From Clostridium beijerinckii (GTDB lineage: Bacteria > Bacillota > Clostridia > Clostridiales > Clostridiaceae): 64,000 nucleotides of DNA. The translations under genes and the position numbers were made by a program. Every line of letters starts with the position of its first letter. Position 1 is the stretch's first letter. The stretch covers positions 747,501 through 811,500 of the forward strand of contig NZ_CP144906.1 of NCBI RefSeq assembly GCF_036699995.1. The letters are read 5' to 3'. Below the pieces are notes generated by a model, which was not told the DNA's origin, searched no databases, and saw only the letters and a list, made by a program, of their open reading frames with translations. This document shows, piece by piece, positions 16,936 through 61,906 of this stretch.

Positions 16936-17293
16936 GGGGGCGTTTTGGCTTCGACGGGGGTAAGAAGGGTTTGTTAAGCGAGTCGAGGGACGCATGGAGC
17001 CTCGTTAATAAAGTATGCACTAAATGTAAACGCAGAAGATAATTTTGCATTAGCAGCTTAGTTTAATAGCTGTTCATCAGCCCAGGTTGCCTACGGCTTG
17101 GATCACTGGTGTCATTAAAGTGGGAAACGAAGCCTAGCAAAGCTTTGAGCTAGAGGGGTATTCATGAAGCTACTGAGAAGTATAGCCTGTCTAAGGGCGA
17201 TACTTTGAGGGAATTTTAAAACTTAGACTGCACTCGGAGAAAGATAAATCAATCTACTTTCGGACACGGGTTCGACACCCGTCGCCTCCACCA
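16936..17293 (+). ncRNA. ssrA: tmRNA (ssrA)
   Basis: 358 nucleotides. The 5' end GGGGGCG pairs with CGCCTCC before the encoded 3' ACCA, forming the alanyl acceptor stem, and GGTTCGACACCC is the T-arm. The tag frame at 17032-17061 reads AEDNFALAA then TAG. tmRNA rescues stalled ribosomes and tags their products for degradation. The prophage is inserted exactly at the 3' end; the core repeat leaves the gene sequence whole, but its own terminator now lies 38 kb away. Confidence 0.98.
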
Positions 17294-54394: not shown

Positions 54395-55132
54395 ATGATG
54401 GCGAAAATTATAAACTGTAAAACATGTGGCAAGGAAATAGCAAAAAATGCAAAGATATGTCCAAGTTGCGGAGCAAAAAATAAAAAGCCTATTTTTAAAA
54501 GATGGTGGTTTATATTAATTGTTCTGGTAGTTATAATAGGTGCTTTGGCATCAGGAGGAAACAAAGATAAGAATACAACAGATGAATCTCAAAAAACTAC
54601 TAACACATCAACTACTAATGCAAACAAAGATGGACTTAAACAAGAAAATGGGAAAGATACTACAGATGAGAATATACCTAAGGAATATCAAGCAGCATTA
54701 AAAAAAGCAGATAGTTACGCTAACACAATGAATTTTTCTAAAAAAGCCTTGTATCACCAATTAACATCAGATGCTGGGGAAAAATTTACTGAAGAAGCTG
54801 CACAATATGCTATAGACAATGTAAAAGCAGATTGGAAAAAGAATGCATTAAAAAAAGCGGATAATTACGCTAATACAATGAATTTTTCTAAAAAAGGCTT
54901 ATATCATCAATTAACATCAGATGCTGGGGAAAAATTTACTGAAGAAGAGGCACAATATGCTATAGACAATGTAAAAGCAGATTGGAAAAAGAATGCATTA
55001 GCAAAAGCTAAAATATATCAAAGTGAAATGAATATGTCTAAGAGTTCTATAAATCACCAATTGGTGTCAGATGCAGGAGAAAAATTTACTGAAGAAGAAG
55101 CACAATATGCTATAAATAATTTAGAAAATTAA
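54395..55132 (+). CDS. Ltp-like superinfection-exclusion candidate, zinc-ribbon anchored
   Basis: 245 residues. An N-terminal zinc ribbon (CKTCGK, CPSCGA), one membrane segment (WWFILIVLVVIIGALASGG, about 36-54), a Ser/Thr/Asn linker, then three ~50-residue repeats of the Ltp / host-cell-surface-exposed type (YANTMNFSKK, YHQLTSDAGEKFTEEEAQY). Ltp of S. thermophilus phage TP-J34 blocks injection by other phages. The lipobox of Ltp is replaced here by zinc ribbon plus membrane segment. It sits at the prophage edge, where conversion genes usually are. GGGGGG precedes the ATGs (54395 or 54398). Confidence 0.85.
   Translation: MMAKIINCKTCGKEIAKNAKICPSCGAKNKKPIFKRWWFILIVLVVIIGALASGGNKDKNTTDESQKTTNTSTTNANKDGLKQENGKDTTDENIPKEYQAALKKADSYANTMNFSKKALYHQLTSDAGEKFTEEAAQYAIDNVKADWKKNALKKADNYANTMNFSKKGLYHQLTSDAGEKFTEEEAQYAIDNVKADWKKNALAKAKIYQSEMNMSKSSINHQLVSDAGEKFTEEEAQYAINNLEN
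54701..55132 (+). repeat. 150-bp tandem repeats in the Ltp-like gene
   Basis: Units start at 54701, 54851 and 55001, period exactly 150 bases (50 codons). The first two are nearly identical in DNA; the third has diverged. This points to a recent internal duplication of one Ltp repeat. Confidence 0.9.
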
Positions 55133-55243: not shown

Positions 55244-55255
55244 TCGCCTCCACCA
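55244..55255 (+). repeat. attR core (12 bp)
   Basis: Second copy of TCGCCTCCACCA, followed at once by the hairpin that must have been the original ssrA terminator. It carries none of the rest of ssrA. Confidence 0.92.
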
Positions 55256-55934: not shown

Positions 55935-58691
55935 ATGGAATGTTATATAGACAATAAACCAATTAATATACTTTCAATGTCAAATCGTACTTTTAATACA
56001 TTACAAAGAATAGGAATTCATACAGTAAAGGAACTTTATGAACTTGATCCAACAACTATTGTTACTTTACCTAACATAGGCAAAGTAACAATAAATGAAA
56101 TAGAGAAAGTTAAACAGAAATTGAATGAAGGAAGGATTATTCCTGGAGATTCATACGAAGCAAATTTACTAGAAAAGTCTAAGAAGACAGAAAAATTGCA
56201 AAATGAAATATTTTACAATTCCCAAGGTATTCTTTGTTTTGATATATCAATAGAAAGATTAAAACCATTTGTACGTGGTTACAATTGCTTAAAAAAGGCT
56301 GGTTTTAATTATATATCTCAAATTATTGGAATGGATACTGAAGAGTTATGCAAAATAAAAAATATGGGAAAAAAAACTGCACAAGATATAATTTCTGAAG
56401 TAAATAATATTGAATTTAAAATAGTTGATGAGGATGAATTTGAAAAAGGTGACATATACTCAAAGATCCATGAAAAGATGAGTAATCAAGACAAAACAAT
56501 ATTAAATTTATGTATGAAAAAAGCTAATGCTATTTTTGATGTTAGATTTAATGAACAAAATTCATTAGCAAAGGAATTTCAGTTGATTATTTCTAAAACA
56601 TTAGAATTAGATAATAAAGGAAATATGAATGATATGTTAAATAAAATGGTTTTTGATGATAATTTCAAGTTGTTTAACAACATTCTTATACGTTCAATAA
56701 TGGAAAAGGTAAAATCTTTTGAATATGGTTGCTCACGAAAAATATTAAATTCGATATATGGTGAAGTTTTTGATGAAAAAAATATCAATAAGATAATCAG
56801 TAAGCTTTTAGAAGAAAATGAATTAATATCTACAGAAAATGGTATAGAGTTTTTTTATCCTAGTATTAAAGAATATATTGAAAATATGCCTGAAGGAAGA
56901 GATAGGTATGTTTTAGAATCCAGGAGTAAAGGGGATACCTTTGAAGAAATAGGTAAAATATTAGAAATAAGTCGCGAAAGAGTTCGGCAAATTCAAAACA
57001 AAGTTTTTCAAGGAATTGACCATATTTATGAAGATCGTTATAAGCAGGTATTTCTTGATTATAAATTTGATAAAGAACTATTTTGTTATGGTTTTAATCA
57101 AAATGAATTATGTTATATTTATTTAGAAACTAAGTATAAAAGAGAAAAATCAAAATATAAGCAAATAGAAAAACTTGAAAATGATGAATCATATCCTTTT
57201 GAATTTCATCGTGCAGGAGAAAAAATTGTACATAGAAATGAATTAAATATAGATGGAAATTATATATTAAAAGAACGTACAGAAATTGCAAATTTTGTTG
57301 CGAAGACATATTGTAGAGACAAAACTAAATTTACAGATTTTGTTGAATTGTATAACATTTTTTTAGAAATCAATGGATTGAAGTTGGAAGATAAATTACA
57401 AATTGTAGCAGGAACTTATGAAAATAAATTTGCAAAATGGAAAAATATTTTATGGAATAATCATTCATCTTTTAGATATTATGAATTTGAAAAATATGAT
57501 TTTAATGAGCTACTAAAAGCTATAGATTTTTATCAATATAAAGATGTAGAAATTTCAACTTTAAAATTTTTTAAAGAACATTTAGATGTTATGAAAGACT
57601 ATGATATAAGAGATGAATATGAACTGCATAATTTGCTAAAAAAGGTTGTAGATATAGGTAATATCGATGTTTCATTTTCAAGGATGCCACATATAGTATT
57701 TGGTAAGGCTGATACAAGTAAACAGGTATATGATTTATTATTACAATGTGCATCAGATAGAAAAATATCAATAGATGATTTTGCTGAAAAATATGAAGAG
57801 GAGTATGGAGTTAAAGTACCATCTGTTAAAGCAAATTATTTAGAACCTATTGATAAATATTTGCATGATGGATTGTATGAAATAAGAGTTAAACCACTTG
57901 AAGACGAAGCGTATAAAAAACTTAAATTAATTTTAAATGAAGATTATTATACTATAAATAAACTTAAAGCAATTTTTAAAAATGTACATTCAAATAATAA
58001 TGATATAAATGCTTATACAATAAAGCAACTTGGATTTAATATATACAAAGATTATGTAATTAGTACTAGATATAAAAGTGCAGTGGAATATTTTAGAAGG
58101 TTGCTATCTGTTGATATATTTAAACTTGATAATTTAGAAACTTCGATTATATATAATGGAACTTTCAATGCTGAACTTTATAGAAAAAGAGAAAACTATG
58201 ACATTATAGAGTATGCTCCTGGAAGTTATATATCATTTAATAGGCTTAAAACAGCCAATATTGAAAAGAAAGATATAGTTGAGTTTATAGATGCTGTATA
58301 TAATTTTGTACCTACTAATGAATATTTTTCGATTAAATCAATTTTGAATGACGGATTTGATAATAAACTTTTTGATTTAGGGTTTGATAATTGGTTTTAT
58401 GCTTCATTAATTACTGAAGATAAAAAAAGATTTAGTTATGGTAAATTTGGATTAACAAAAGTATTTATTCTTGGAAATAAAGAGATAACATTTTCAAAGT
58501 TTATAGAAGATTTAGTTATAGAAAGTAGTAGTATGGAATTGGAGGATATTATCAATCTATTAATGGATAAGTATGGCTGTTATATAAAGCGTGATAAATT
58601 AATAGAACTAATTAAAAGTACAAGCCTTTATTATAATAAAATAATAGAGAAGGTATATATAGATTATGAAATTTATTTGGAGGAAATATAA
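55935..58691 (+). CDS. Large protein with tandem alpha-CTD-like domains and sigma region-4 HTH
   Basis: 918 residues. Two helix-hairpin-helix domains like the RNA polymerase alpha C-terminal domain lie at about 10-62 (SNRTFNTLQRIGIHTVKELY, LPNIGKVTINEIEKV) and 102-160 (VRGYNCLKKAGFNYISQI, KNMGKKTAQDI). A sigma region-4-type helix-turn-helix is near 333-355 (TFEEIGKILEISRERVRQIQ). The remaining ~550 residues match nothing I know. No catalytic motif is seen. First gene of a three-gene operon with a ParB-like and an SNF2-like gene. Likely a DNA-binding recognition subunit; function unknown. GAGGG precedes the ATG. Confidence 0.75.
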   Translation: MECYIDNKPINILSMSNRTFNTLQRIGIHTVKELYELDPTTIVTLPNIGKVTINEIEKVKQKLNEGRIIPGDSYEANLLEKSKKTEKLQNEIFYNSQGILCFDISIERLKPFVRGYNCLKKAGFNYISQIIGMDTEELCKIKNMGKKTAQDIISEVNNIEFKIVDEDEFEKGDIYSKIHEKMSNQDKTILNLCMKKANAIFDVRFNEQNSLAKEFQLIISKTLELDNKGNMNDMLNKMVFDDNFKLFNNILIRSIMEKVKSFEYGCSRKILNSIYGEVFDEKNINKIISKLLEENELISTENGIEFFYPSIKEYIENMPEGRDRYVLESRSKGDTFEEIGKILEISRERVRQIQNKVFQGIDHIYEDRYKQVFLDYKFDKELFCYGFNQNELCYIYLETKYKREKSKYKQIEKLENDESYPFEFHRAGEKIVHRNELNIDGNYILKERTEIANFVAKTYCRDKTKFTDFVELYNIFLEINGLKLEDKLQIVAGTYENKFAKWKNILWNNHSSFRYYEFEKYDFNELLKAIDFYQYKDVEISTLKFFKEHLDVMKDYDIRDEYELHNLLKKVVDIGNIDVSFSRMPHIVFGKADTSKQVYDLLLQCASDRKISIDDFAEKYEEEYGVKVPSVKANYLEPIDKYLHDGLYEIRVKPLEDEAYKKLKLILNEDYYTINKLKAIFKNVHSNNNDINAYTIKQLGFNIYKDYVISTRYKSAVEYFRRLLSVDIFKLDNLETSIIYNGTFNAELYRKRENYDIIEYAPGSYISFNRLKTANIEKKDIVEFIDAVYNFVPTNEYFSIKSILNDGFDNKLFDLGFDNWFYASLITEDKKRFSYGKFGLTKVFILGNKEITFSKFIEDLVIESSSMELEDIINLLMDKYGCYIKRDKLIELIKSTSLYYNKIIEKVYIDYEIYLEEI

Positions 58692-58693
58692 AA

Positions 58694-59908
58694 ATGAATT
58701 TATTAAGTGATGAATCGGTTAATAGTAGAATTGAAAAAATATCAGAGACTAAAAGGGTACATTTGAGTGGAAAAACAGAAGTTATGGCTGTATATCGAAT
58801 TCCATTAGATTTATTATATTATAATGATCAAAATGATCGTATAGCAGCACGGATGAGTCAATATAGAGAAGAAAATGGATTTATGCCAACAGATAAGTTG
58901 GAACGAGGAGAGTTTAACGATATTATAGAAGAATTTATTGTTGAAACTAATGAAAAGGCAATTACAAGAACTCAAAATAATATTAAATTGCGTAGTCAGG
59001 AAAACCCTGGGGTTGTTTTGTCAGATGGTAGAATTATTGATGGAAATAGGCGTTTTACTTGTTTGCGGAGGCTTGCAAAGGAAAATCCGGATTTTTCATA
59101 TTTTAATGCTACTATTTTAGATAGAAGTATTCGACATAATGCTAAAGAAATTAAAATGCTTGAGCTTCAATTGCAATTTGGAGAGGAAAGCAAAGAAGAT
59201 TATAGTTCGATTGATAAAATAACAGGAATATATTACGATGTAATAAAAAATAAGCTTTTATCAGCTGAAGAATACGCACATAGTGTTAACGAAACTACTA
59301 AAAGTATTAATTGTAAAATTGAAATAGCAAATTTAGTGGAGGAATTTCTTGAGTTTATTAATGCAAAAGAACAATTTCATTTAGCAAGACAGTTGGAAGT
59401 ATATGCTGCTATTGAGGAACTTCAAAAAATGTTGAAAAAATGCATGAATGATGATGATAGGGAACAATTAAAATATATTGTATTTGCTACTATTGCAGTA
59501 GGAACAGAAGAAGATAAAAGAAATAAAGTTAGGCAGATGAGTAGAATTGTTTCATCACAATATTGTGATGAATTTATTGCAGAACAAGCTGTATTAGTAG
59601 AAAAGGTTGCAGACGCATTACCTCATCAAAAAATATCATCTATGTCAACTATAATTGATATAAGAAAGAAATCTAAAGATATAGCTGAAGAATTAGATAG
59701 ATCTTTGAAAAAAGCTGATTTAAAAACAAAAAAAAGTAATGCAAAATTAGAATTAATTAGACTTGCTGAAAATGCTACAGATAATTTAGAAAGCATTGAT
59801 ACTAATCTTCTGAAAAAAATGAATGATAGTGAATTACAACGTTTTGAACGTCAAATAAAATTGCTTGAGGATGCTTTAAATATAATTAAGGATGATTTGA
59901 AAATATGA
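58694..59908 (+). CDS. ParB-like protein
   Basis: 404 residues. The N-terminal ParB/sulfiredoxin-type fold is suggested by VYRIPLDLLYYNDQNDRIA (about 29-47) and the signature SDGRIIDGNRRFTCLRRL (about 109-126). ParB-fold domains bind or hydrolyse nucleotides (CTP in true ParB); DndB-like proteins are distant relatives. The C-terminal ~200 residues are helical and charged. Two bases after gene one; its TGA overlaps the start of gene three (ATGA). No ParA partner is present, so plasmid partitioning is unlikely. Confidence 0.75.
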   Translation: MNLLSDESVNSRIEKISETKRVHLSGKTEVMAVYRIPLDLLYYNDQNDRIAARMSQYREENGFMPTDKLERGEFNDIIEEFIVETNEKAITRTQNNIKLRSQENPGVVLSDGRIIDGNRRFTCLRRLAKENPDFSYFNATILDRSIRHNAKEIKMLELQLQFGEESKEDYSSIDKITGIYYDVIKNKLLSAEEYAHSVNETTKSINCKIEIANLVEEFLEFINAKEQFHLARQLEVYAAIEELQKMLKKCMNDDDREQLKYIVFATIAVGTEEDKRNKVRQMSRIVSSQYCDEFIAEQAVLVEKVADALPHQKISSMSTIIDIRKKSKDIAEELDRSLKKADLKTKKSNAKLELIRLAENATDNLESIDTNLLKKMNDSELQRFERQIKLLEDALNIIKDDLKI

Positions 59909-61776
59909 AGGTTTGGAAATTAAATACAGAAGGGGCGGGTTTAATTCTTACTGCAAAATCAGAAATTGAAAGTATATTATTTTCTTCATGGTATAAGATG
60001 AAATTAAAGCGTTATGCAAGGAGTTACGATGAAGATAACATATACTTTAAAGAAGATTTAGTTTATATAGAACAAAAACAGATAATAAGTATATTACAAT
60101 TAAATTGTGGAAAATTAGAGGCAAAAATTGAAATTGCTAATGAGATATTATCAAATATAAAAAATCTTGAATTACACATCGAAGAACGCTCTCGTGCAGG
60201 TATTGAAATAAAACATCAAAATGTTAAATACTTTGATAAATTTAAACAATATAGCAAAATTGTTAATGATAATATGGTGAGAACACTAAGAGAAAAACAA
60301 ATGTGGGATTCTTTTTATATGTGTATGATGAAAAAATCAGCAAATTTTTCAGTTCCTGGTTCTGGTAAAACATCATCAGTTCTTGGTGTATATGCATTTT
60401 TAAAAGAATGCCAAAATGTTAAGAGAATAGTAGTTATATGTCCTAAAAACGCTTTTGGATCTTGGATTGATGAATTTAAAATTTGTTTTGGAGAAAAAGA
60501 AAAACTTAAAGTGTTTCATATTCATGATAAAAAATTCAAAAATGTTAAACAGTGTAAAGAAAGTTTGAACTATAAAAGTGATAAATATAATTTATTTCTA
60601 TTTAATTATGAGGCGGTTCAAAGCTATTTAAATGAAGTAAAAATTATTGTTAATGAAGAGACTTTACTTGTATATGATGAGGTACATAAGGTTAAGCGCC
60701 ATGATGGGAAATGGGCCAAAAGTTCACTTCAGATAGCAAAGAATGCTAGTTATTGTATTGCCATGACTGGAACACCAATTCCTAATACGTATCTTGATAT
60801 ATATAATTTGTTGAATATACTTTATCCGCATGAATATAAAAACTTTTTTAACTTTGATACAAGGATGTTGCGTAATCCTCGCAATGAGGATATTGATAAA
60901 ATAAATAAAACAATAGCGCCCTTTTTTTGTCGCACTACGAAGGAGCAATTATCCGTACCGCCAGTTAATGAAGATAAAATGATTTTGATTGAGGCTTCAG
61001 AAATAGAAAATAAGCTGTTTAATATTTTATGTATGCATTATCGTTCCAATAAGCTTGCACTAATGATAAGAATTTTGCAACTTGAAAGTGATAGTTCATT
61101 ATTATTGAGTAAACTTGATTTGAAAGATTTTAAATATTTGCTTAATGACAATTGCGAAGATATTGAAGATATTGATTTTGTAGATTATTCCAATGAAGTT
61201 AGAAATTTAATTGAAAATATGCCATGTTCTGAAAAAATATCTGCATGTATAAATCTTGTAAAGAAATTAATAGCAGAAGATAAAACTGTAATTATCTGGT
61301 GCATTTTTAAAAATTCTATGCACTCTATATCAAAAATATTAAATAAAAATAATATATCTACTAAAATAGTAGATGGAGAAGTTGATCTTGAAGATAGACA
61401 ACAAATCCTTGAAGATTTCAAGAATGGATTTACAAAAGTTTTGATAACTAATCCTCATACTCTTGCCGAATCTGTTTCTTTACATTCAGTTTGTCATGAT
61501 GCAGTATATTTTGAATATAGTTATAATCTTGTACATTTGTTACAGTCAAAAGATAGAATTCATCGATTAGGTTTATTGCCAAATCAATATACGCAGTATT
61601 ATTATTTAAAAACAACATTTAGAAATATTGATGGTGAATTTTCGATGGATGAAGAAATATACTTGAGACTTAAAGAAAAAGAAAAAATAATGCTTAATGC
61701 TATTGATAAAGATGTTGTTGAAATTATGCCAACAGATGATGAAGATCTTGAAATGATATTTTCTGAATTGTTTTAA
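59905..61776 (+). CDS. SNF2-type superfamily 2 helicase/translocase
   Basis: 623 residues. Walker A SVPGSGKTSSVLG (about 149-161), motif II YDEVHKVK (about 257), motif III AMTGTPIPNTYLD, and in the second RecA lobe VIIWCIFKN, ITNPHTLAESVSLHSV and motif VI QSKDRIHRLG: the full set of an SNF2/Rad54-like translocase. No nuclease domain is visible. Such enzymes move along double-stranded DNA and remodel bound proteins; they are core parts of several restriction-type defence systems (for example DISARM). Third gene of the operon, overlapping gene two by 4 bases. Confidence 0.88.
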   Translation: MKVWKLNTEGAGLILTAKSEIESILFSSWYKMKLKRYARSYDEDNIYFKEDLVYIEQKQIISILQLNCGKLEAKIEIANEILSNIKNLELHIEERSRAGIEIKHQNVKYFDKFKQYSKIVNDNMVRTLREKQMWDSFYMCMMKKSANFSVPGSGKTSSVLGVYAFLKECQNVKRIVVICPKNAFGSWIDEFKICFGEKEKLKVFHIHDKKFKNVKQCKESLNYKSDKYNLFLFNYEAVQSYLNEVKIIVNEETLLVYDEVHKVKRHDGKWAKSSLQIAKNASYCIAMTGTPIPNTYLDIYNLLNILYPHEYKNFFNFDTRMLRNPRNEDIDKINKTIAPFFCRTTKEQLSVPPVNEDKMILIEASEIENKLFNILCMHYRSNKLALMIRILQLESDSSLLLSKLDLKDFKYLLNDNCEDIEDIDFVDYSNEVRNLIENMPCSEKISACINLVKKLIAEDKTVIIWCIFKNSMHSISKILNKNNISTKIVDGEVDLEDRQQILEDFKNGFTKVLITNPHTLAESVSLHSVCHDAVYFEYSYNLVHLLQSKDRIHRLGLLPNQYTQYYYLKTTFRNIDGEFSMDEEIYLRLKEKEKIMLNAIDKDVVEIMPTDDEDLEMIFSELF

Positions 61777-61866
61777 AAAGGCTAATCAATTAGCAAAACA
61801 TATAGAATTCCTAAAGTGAATCAAAATATAAAATTAAATATATATTATAACTATGTAATAAATAAA

Positions 61867-61906
61867 AGGAATACTAAAGCAATATACTTTGAGCATTCCT
61901 TTTTCT
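61867..61906 (+). terminator. Terminator after the three-gene operon
   Basis: AGGAAT and ATTCCT, with inner AAAG/CTTT, form a stem from 61868 to 61900, followed by TTTTTCTATTTT. About 90 bases after the helicase stop. Confidence 0.8.

Follow-up and report, generated by a model that had tools for sequence, protein, structure and literature searches.

A ParB-SNF2 gene pair shared with restriction operons accompanies a promoter-reader-like protein in a putative defence-type operon of Clostridium beijerinckii

In the restriction systems CglI and NgoAVII, a separate R protein and a helicase-like ATPase form one complex encoded beside a methylase gene, and DNA translocation has been proposed for CglI, according to the abstracts of the respective reports (PMC4267653, PMC5737866). 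Here, we describe a three-gene operon from a 64,000-nucleotide stretch of the 5.55-Mb chromosome of Clostridium beijerinckii (G000:C1:747501-811500; hereafter, the window). Its first protein combines two domains resembling the C-terminal domain of the RNA polymerase alpha subunit (alpha-CTD) with a sigma region-4-like helix-turn-helix (HTH), and is followed by a ParB-type protein and an SNF2-family ATPase:

55935..58691, + strand: gene 1, 918 amino acids (aa); two alpha-CTD-like domains, sigma-4-like HTH and a conserved C-terminal part
58694..59908, + strand: gene 2, 404 aa; ParB_N and HTH protein
59905..61776, + strand: gene 3, 623 aa; SNF2-family ATPase with no nuclease domain recognised

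All three open reading frames (ORFs) are intact. Genes 1 and 2 are separated by a 2-base gap and genes 2 and 3 overlap by 4 bases, so the ORF list agrees with the coupling of three genes described in a first-pass annotation made from the sequence. The operon resembles CglI and NgoAVII in having a separate partner protein next to a helicase-like ATPase, whereas their ATPase is of the DEAD family, their R protein is an endonuclease, the abstracts name neither ParB nor an alpha-CTD/sigma-4 reader, and their methylase and nuclease have no recognised counterpart in the window operon (PMC4267653, PMC5737866).

Judged by gene context, the operon is closest to restriction-modification operons in which the same ParB-SNF2 pair (genes 2 and 3) is used, and the pair itself appears to be a plug-in common to different restriction systems. 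We hold with moderate confidence that the operon is a restriction-type defence module, borne by a mobile element and equipped with a promoter-like DNA reader; its composition suggests an unnamed defence-type system that would find DNA by its promoters. The slot upstream of the pair is filled by a type III Res, a BanI/DpnII-like or BglII-like endonuclease, or gene 1. In type III restriction-modification operons, Mod-Res leads straight into the gene 2 homologue at L010, L011, L094-L097 and L099 (locus numbers are our own). The full order Mod-Res-gene 2-gene 3 is seen at L010, L011 and L094-L097, on plasmids and viral contigs, with the SNF2 gene of L096 interrupted; two cut loci show Mod-Res-gene 2 (L099) and Res followed by the pair (L013). 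The window, in contrast, has neither Mod nor Res, and gene 1 takes the position of Res. Ten viral loci carry a BanI/DpnII-like endonuclease, the pair, a NOV_C protein and Dcm; at contig ends, L159 lacks the endonuclease and L155 lacks Dcm, and Pfam checks of this type covered the endonuclease in L007 and L157 and NOV_C in L007. In a genome of the same genus (G050), the pair is flanked by a BanI/DpnII-like endonuclease on one side and a NOV_C-domain protein on the other, with a cytosine methylase alongside. A BglII-like endonuclease and an N6/N4 methyltransferase precede the pair at L117 and L166, and in Actinomycetota the pair follows an Eco57I-type methyltransferase, a T5orf172-ResIII protein (T5orf172 is presumably GIY-YIG-like) and a 437-aa protein matching parts of the C-terminal half of gene 1. 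Among 81 viral loci (L150-L230, some sharing contigs with L094-L097), L150-L169 were labelled; in 18 of the 19 of these with gene 3, the gene 2 ORF lies directly 5' of the SNF2 ORF or fragment (the exception is L168), and at least 15 of the 19 also carry a DNA methylase (14 by labels, plus L166). In the open full-text literature, with most subscription papers and REBASE outside reach, we recognised no description of the triplet, of the pair in restriction operons or of a plug-in role for it.

The triplet recurs well beyond the window. Scanning genomes with the gene 2 alignment gave 157 relatives, the best 80 of which were kept as loci; 77 were scorable after L017, L025 and L071 had been dropped for want of a gene 2 ORF, and near-identical loci (such as L048/L049, the L058 group, the related L075/L087/L088/L090) were not thinned in the counts. 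A gene-1-type protein upstream, gene 2, and gene 3 downstream are adjacent in 42 of the 77 loci, in several phyla, with inter-gene gaps of -98 to +54 and -23 to +42 bases (ORF starts as called here). These 42 include five Actinomycetota loci with only the C-terminal part of gene 1, and L085, with a Sau3AI fusion in its place. Because the same gene order is found in other phyla, the three-gene unit is not a chance association; the neighbourhood search that the first-pass annotation had proposed thus finds the triplet conserved elsewhere. A DNA methylase is labelled in 21 of the 77 loci, and Sau3AI-like genes in 13. The remaining loci show gene 1 downstream with no SNF2 gene adjacent (22 loci), gene 1 upstream without gene 3 (4), gene 3 without adjacent gene 1 (4), neither (4), or a gene 3-gene 2 fusion (1). 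In this last locus, L051 of Staphylococcus pasteuri, the gene 3 and gene 2 matches lie inside one 1024-aa ORF, an arrangement that would fit physical coupling of the pair. The layout with gene 1 downstream represents a second architecture, composed of an extended gene 2, gene 1 and a small HIRAN-type protein, with no adjacent SNF2 gene. Its gene 2 measures 570-611 aa in 21 of 22 loci (L046, L055 and L073 included; the exception, L086, has 398 aa), and in L046, the sole locus of this layout scanned with Pfam, gene 2 is extended by a Swt1-type HEPN domain, and a HIRAN protein is encoded by the small gene that follows gene 1. HEPN_Swt1 is also present in L082, where gene 2 has no adjacent gene 1, and 18 loci have a homologue of the small HIRAN-type gene. 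With all architectures counted, gene 2 relatives are found only sporadically, in 4 of 98 related genomes and 9 of 398 genomes of the phylum, the window's own being included in both figures.

No named system for the triplet was found in PADLOC-DB 2.0.0 (2023 version), NCBIfam or the open full-text literature, in line with the first-pass annotation, which knew of none. That annotation had also pointed to DISARM and Dnd-related defence; the DISARM comparison does not hold, and the Dnd and Dpd families gave only weak matches to gene 3. For DISARM (DrmA, DrmB and DrmC with DrmD or DrmMI), gene 3 scores 27.7 against a DrmD NCBIfam cut-off of 610, and DrmB and DrmC are absent from the matches listed for the 18 scanned proteins (25 of 39 listed for one protein). 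Zorya (ZorD with ZorA and ZorB) was likewise rejected, as gene 3 scores 25.9 against a ZorD cut-off of 1500 bits with no ZorA or ZorB across eight proteins, and so was Dpd (25.8 against a DpdE cut-off of 500). DrmD, ZorD, DpdE and BREX BrxHII, which gene 3 matches weakly in PADLOC (30.4 bits), are, like gene 3, SNF2-type ATPases of defence systems, but their partner genes differ. BREX type 2 (PglW with other Pgl/Brx genes) and MZA (MzaA with MzaB-E) were rejected as well: the PglW model (20.8 against 990 bits) and the MzaA model (19.4 against 800 bits) match only the alpha-CTD stretch and the sigma-4 stretch, respectively, and the scans brought up no further component of MZA. MzaA is sigma-70-like, and the point in common between MZA and the operon is a sigma-4-type domain in a suspected defence operon.

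Gene 3 belongs to the SNF2 family on the strength of its SNF2-related domain (Pfam SNF2-rel_dom, 1.2e-23), Helicase_C (2.8e-11) and a full set of ATPase motifs (FSVPGSGKT, DEVH, TGTPIP and QSKDRIHRLG), the set already noted in the first reading of the sequence. The N-terminal PLD part of the SNF2 proteins of L008 and L087 is missing from it. For gene 2, no Pfam model reached its cut-off, the ParB domain included, and the relation to ParB rests on profile comparison. When the gene 2 alignment (89 rows, 69 used by hhalign) was compared with a profile of 25 clostridial ParB_N-type proteins from 30 loci, the core (residues 76-235) scored 40.6 (E 2.1e-5, probability 76.8), against 21.6 at most in 60 shuffled-column controls; these residues were picked after the full-length alignment had been seen, and the gene 2 alignment was altered at the same step. 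The full-length comparison is weak (E 0.028). The match spans the DGNRR motif, as the first-pass annotation had read it, and extends into the HTH; across the aligned relatives, G, N, R and R are invariant and D is kept in at least 90%. Gene 2 is accordingly placed in the ParB/Spo0J superfamily, with ParB_N carrying a GxRR-type motif and then an HTH. The two motifs lie as follows:

59039..59053, + strand: DGNRR motif, gene 2 residues 116-120, aligning with GERR of ParB proteins
60346..60372, + strand: Walker A motif FSVPGSGKT, gene 3

This kinship bears on two other explanations. The homology of gene 2 to ParB_N and HTH, the position of the triplet at the end of a mobile element and its plasmid relatives (gene 3 matches in 75 of 72,556 plasmid records, 52 of the 75 from Enterococcus) would suit an operon for element regulation or partition, in which the ParB-like protein and a promoter-binding partner control element genes or segregation. 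However, no ParA, and hence no ParABS system, was found among nine neighbouring proteins and the further element proteins scanned, which bears out the lack of a ParA partner in the first-pass annotation; the pair resides inside several kinds of restriction operon; and we know of no SNF2 protein that serves as a partition component. We regard this explanation as very doubtful. Alternatively, the ParB domain of gene 2 could be a hidden, DNA-nicking nuclease; the operon would then be a derived restriction system in which gene 1 is the specificity subunit and the methylase is encoded elsewhere in the genome. Nuclease, nicking or NTPase activities are cited for several ParB-type domains, including GmrS, Bce_0392 and Osa, in PMC5512222. 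In addition, 13 of 29 gene 2 members weakly match ddrB-ParB. However, gene 2 aligns through the HTH with ParB_N proteins, which we take to be the CTP-switch family, and sister operons already possess a separate endonuclease, leaving a nicking ParB domain unlikely.

The part that sets the window operon apart is gene 1, in which the following regions can be distinguished:

55947..56120, + strand: alpha-CTD copy 1, residues ~5-62; R265- and N268-equivalents in 51 of 55 rows
56232..56408, + strand: alpha-CTD copy 2, residues ~100-158; R265-equivalent in 54 of 55 rows
56877..57050, + strand: sigma region-4-like HTH, residues ~315-372; E585, R586, R588 and Q589-equivalents in 55 of 55 rows
57882..58688, + strand: C-terminal domain, residues ~650-918; elsewhere fused to a Sau3AI-type domain

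Pfam finds two RNA_pol_A_CTD stretches (6.3e-26) and Sigma70_r4 at residues 322-359 (1.2e-7), the domains anticipated by the first-pass annotation, and assigns no family to the last ~550 residues, which that annotation had left uncharacterised and proposed for a profile search. In a profile search against solved structures, all of the 60 matches listed, out of 138, are alpha-subunit or sigma-factor chains. Internal winged-helix repeats in residues 376-918, though suggested by inspection, were rejected: the best segment pair scored 17.9, and 60 shuffled controls reached up to 20.7. The gene 1 alignment holds 55 rows, the window and 54 of 120 listed matches to residues 375-918 alone, and RNA_pol_A_CTD and Sigma70_r4 are both matched by all 55. 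Residue numbering and contact roles of alpha and sigma-70 are applied here as we assume them to be. In copy 1, the equivalents of R265 and N268 are each kept in 51 rows, G296 in 52 and K298 in 50, the window's own protein having V at the K298-equivalent; in copy 2, the figures are 54 for R265, 47 for N268, 53 for G296 and 37 for K298. The sigma-70 equivalents E585, R586, R588 and Q589 are invariant and R584 is kept in 53 rows. Neither copy conserves alpha positions 259 and 261, and copy 1 is variable at 258 as well. The best-kept surface of the alpha-CTD/sigma-4 region is thus the DNA-contact one, with one sigma-contact position partly retained, and the DNA-recognition unit proposed in the first-pass annotation is the best reading of gene 1, which would bind DNA.

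The C-terminal domain of gene 1 is joined to a MutH/Sau3AI-type domain in five proteins (whole-protein E 1e-34 to 2e-29). Six such fusions were counted (L008, L075, L087, L088, L090 and L085); L085, the sixth, occupies the gene 1 position, and its C-terminus falls short of E 1e-3 against the gene 1 profile. The four fusions that were aligned (L008, L075, L085 and L088) correspond to the second Sau3AI domain and lack the first domain with its D..ELK motif, which is presumably catalytic. What Sau3AI-type systems share with gene 1 is its C-terminal domain, found in a second-domain protein, whereas the window triplet has neither a Sau3AI domain nor Dcm. Residues ~650-918 and the Sau3AI fusions may be read as one docking domain with exchangeable DNA readers.

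The sequences establish the domains, the conserved residues, the coupling of the three genes, the mobility of the unit and the restriction settings of the pair; promoter-like binding, complex formation, translocation and a defensive, anti-phage outcome are what we infer. We propose, by analogy with CglI as its abstracts present it (PMC4267653, PMC5737866), that gene 1 could be the finder, gene 2 the switch and gene 3 the motor. The alpha-CTD and sigma-4 domains would bind promoter-like DNA (an AT-rich UP element and a -35-type hexamer) without RNA polymerase, and the C-terminal part of gene 1 would dock this reader onto the gene 2 and gene 3 proteins. The ParB-type protein would be loaded at the gene 1 site as a nucleotide-controlled clamp or switch, and the SNF2 ATPase would translocate on the marked duplex, displacing or scanning proteins. 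Because no nuclease or methylase is recognisable in the window copy, its target might be blocked and stripped, with proteins displaced, or be silenced, or cleavage might be left to gene 2 or to a nuclease supplied elsewhere. In a more specific and less probable version, foreign DNA would be identified by its promoters: alpha-CTD and sigma-4, detached from the polymerase, would load the ParB clamp and the SNF2 motor, which would then silence the invader or clear it uncut.

Several points weigh against a restriction-type module with a promoter reader. The 55 gene 1 rows were hand-picked, mainly for similar lengths, a choice that favours complete N-termini, and the conserved sigma-4/alpha-CTD residues could be kept for the fold or for RNA polymerase contact. 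Pfam recognises neither a methylase nor a nuclease domain in the triplet; with no methyltransferase among the scanned proteins of 53.3-63.9 kb and no recognisable endonuclease domain in the operon, the unit does not qualify as a type II or type III restriction-modification system. Elsewhere in the element, nuclease-type matches are limited to a GIY-YIG protein ~19.5 kb downstream and a Ppl-like protein, and scanned proteins of the element include no methylase (among its ORFs of at least 100 aa in L106, those of 187, 138 and 131 aa were left out, and the Ppl-like one was compared with PADLOC only). An expected link between PLD-fused SNF2 proteins and methylases was not significant: among loci of 10 kb or more, a methylase lies nearby in 12 of 19 PLD-fused and 8 of 21 non-PLD ones (p 0.20, Fisher test), where L022, whose SNF2 gene ends at a contig end, was counted as non-PLD despite an HKD-type motif and the figures were not recomputed. 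The sparing of self DNA is unexplained, because host promoters carry the same motifs. Finally, 38 of 55 rows have an acidic residue at position 258 of copy 2, a partial retention of a sigma-contact residue. This last point would also suit a decoy or guard, in which gene 1 mimics RNA polymerase surfaces seized by phage transcription factors and factor binding triggers the ParB-SNF2 pair. Phage proteins target sigma-4 and alpha-CTD surfaces, the very domains chosen here, and alpha-CTD number differs among gene 1 relatives, from none in L091 to four stretches in L029. However, the DNA-contact positions are the most conserved while 259 and 261 vary, and endonucleases occupy the same slot in sister operons, which argues for a DNA-reading role; we consider a decoy distinctly unlikely.

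The SNF2 tree (75 rows, quick method, groups named from neighbour genes, long branches flagged) omits 26 ORFs, L117 among them, which were identical to others, had fewer than 380 residues left once trimmed or lacked the Walker A pattern; the BglII label was set by hand for L117, L166, L167 and L168, of which L117 and L166 were Pfam-checked. The T3, BanI, BglII, Rhizobium-type and Eco57I groups are each confined to one side of one branch, the BanI group having a support of only 39 and holding an exceptionally long row, L165. Forms with a fused PLD nuclease and forms lacking it are intermixed in the gene 1 clade. The window SNF2 clusters with Paenibacillus, Treponema and Oscillospiraceae rows with a support of 94, under the program's 95 mark; beyond its own copy, the smallest set marked in the tree has 37 rows. 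Transfer between phyla is likely.

In the window, the operon lies in what we read as a tandem array at the tmRNA gene, composed of a prophage (17.3-55.25 kb) and a 28.65-kb element that opens with the triplet:

17282..17293, + strand: attachment core TCGCCTCCACCA, bounding the tandem array on the left within the 3' end of the tmRNA gene
55244..55255, + strand: attachment core TCGCCTCCACCA, junction of the prophage (right end) with the triplet-bearing element (left end)
61864..61903, + strand: terminator-like hairpin with T-run downstream of the operon (minimum free energy -9.9, z -2.66)

A third TCGCCTCCACCA copy lies at extended coordinate 83898 (G000:C1:831398). A prophage origin of the triplet was rejected, as the triplet sits past the prophage's attachment core. 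The hairpin at 61864-61903 corresponds to the terminator of the first-pass annotation, although a consensus terminator scan did not list it, and promoter-like matches in the region are no more than chance (66 seen, 74.6 expected). The 28.65-kb element also encodes RadC, Prim-Pol, a large serine recombinase, the GIY-YIG protein and an LRAT-domain protein (L106 1055-1816). The Ppl-like, PHP-ATPase-like protein lies ~15.5 kb downstream of the triplet (L106 13798-16518; PADLOC Ppl, E 1.9e-88), and its gene, a second defence-type gene of the element, counts in favour of a defence module. Near-identical terminator-like hairpins follow the last two of the three 12-base cores. Three Ltp-type lipoprotein repeats (PF07553) occur in a zinc-ribbon protein encoded at the right end of the prophage (window 54395-55132), and just to the right of the array two 477-aa transposase-like ORFs, identical by eye, stand in direct tandem (L107 6975-8408 and 8787-10220).

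If the plug-in role of the ParB-SNF2 pair is true, a common step, consisting of a nucleotide-controlled clamp and a duplex motor, would operate across type II, type III and Eco57I-type systems and would be biochemically testable. The version in the window would add DNA recognition by promoter elements instead of a short methylatable site, and it poses the question of how the cell's own promoters may be spared.

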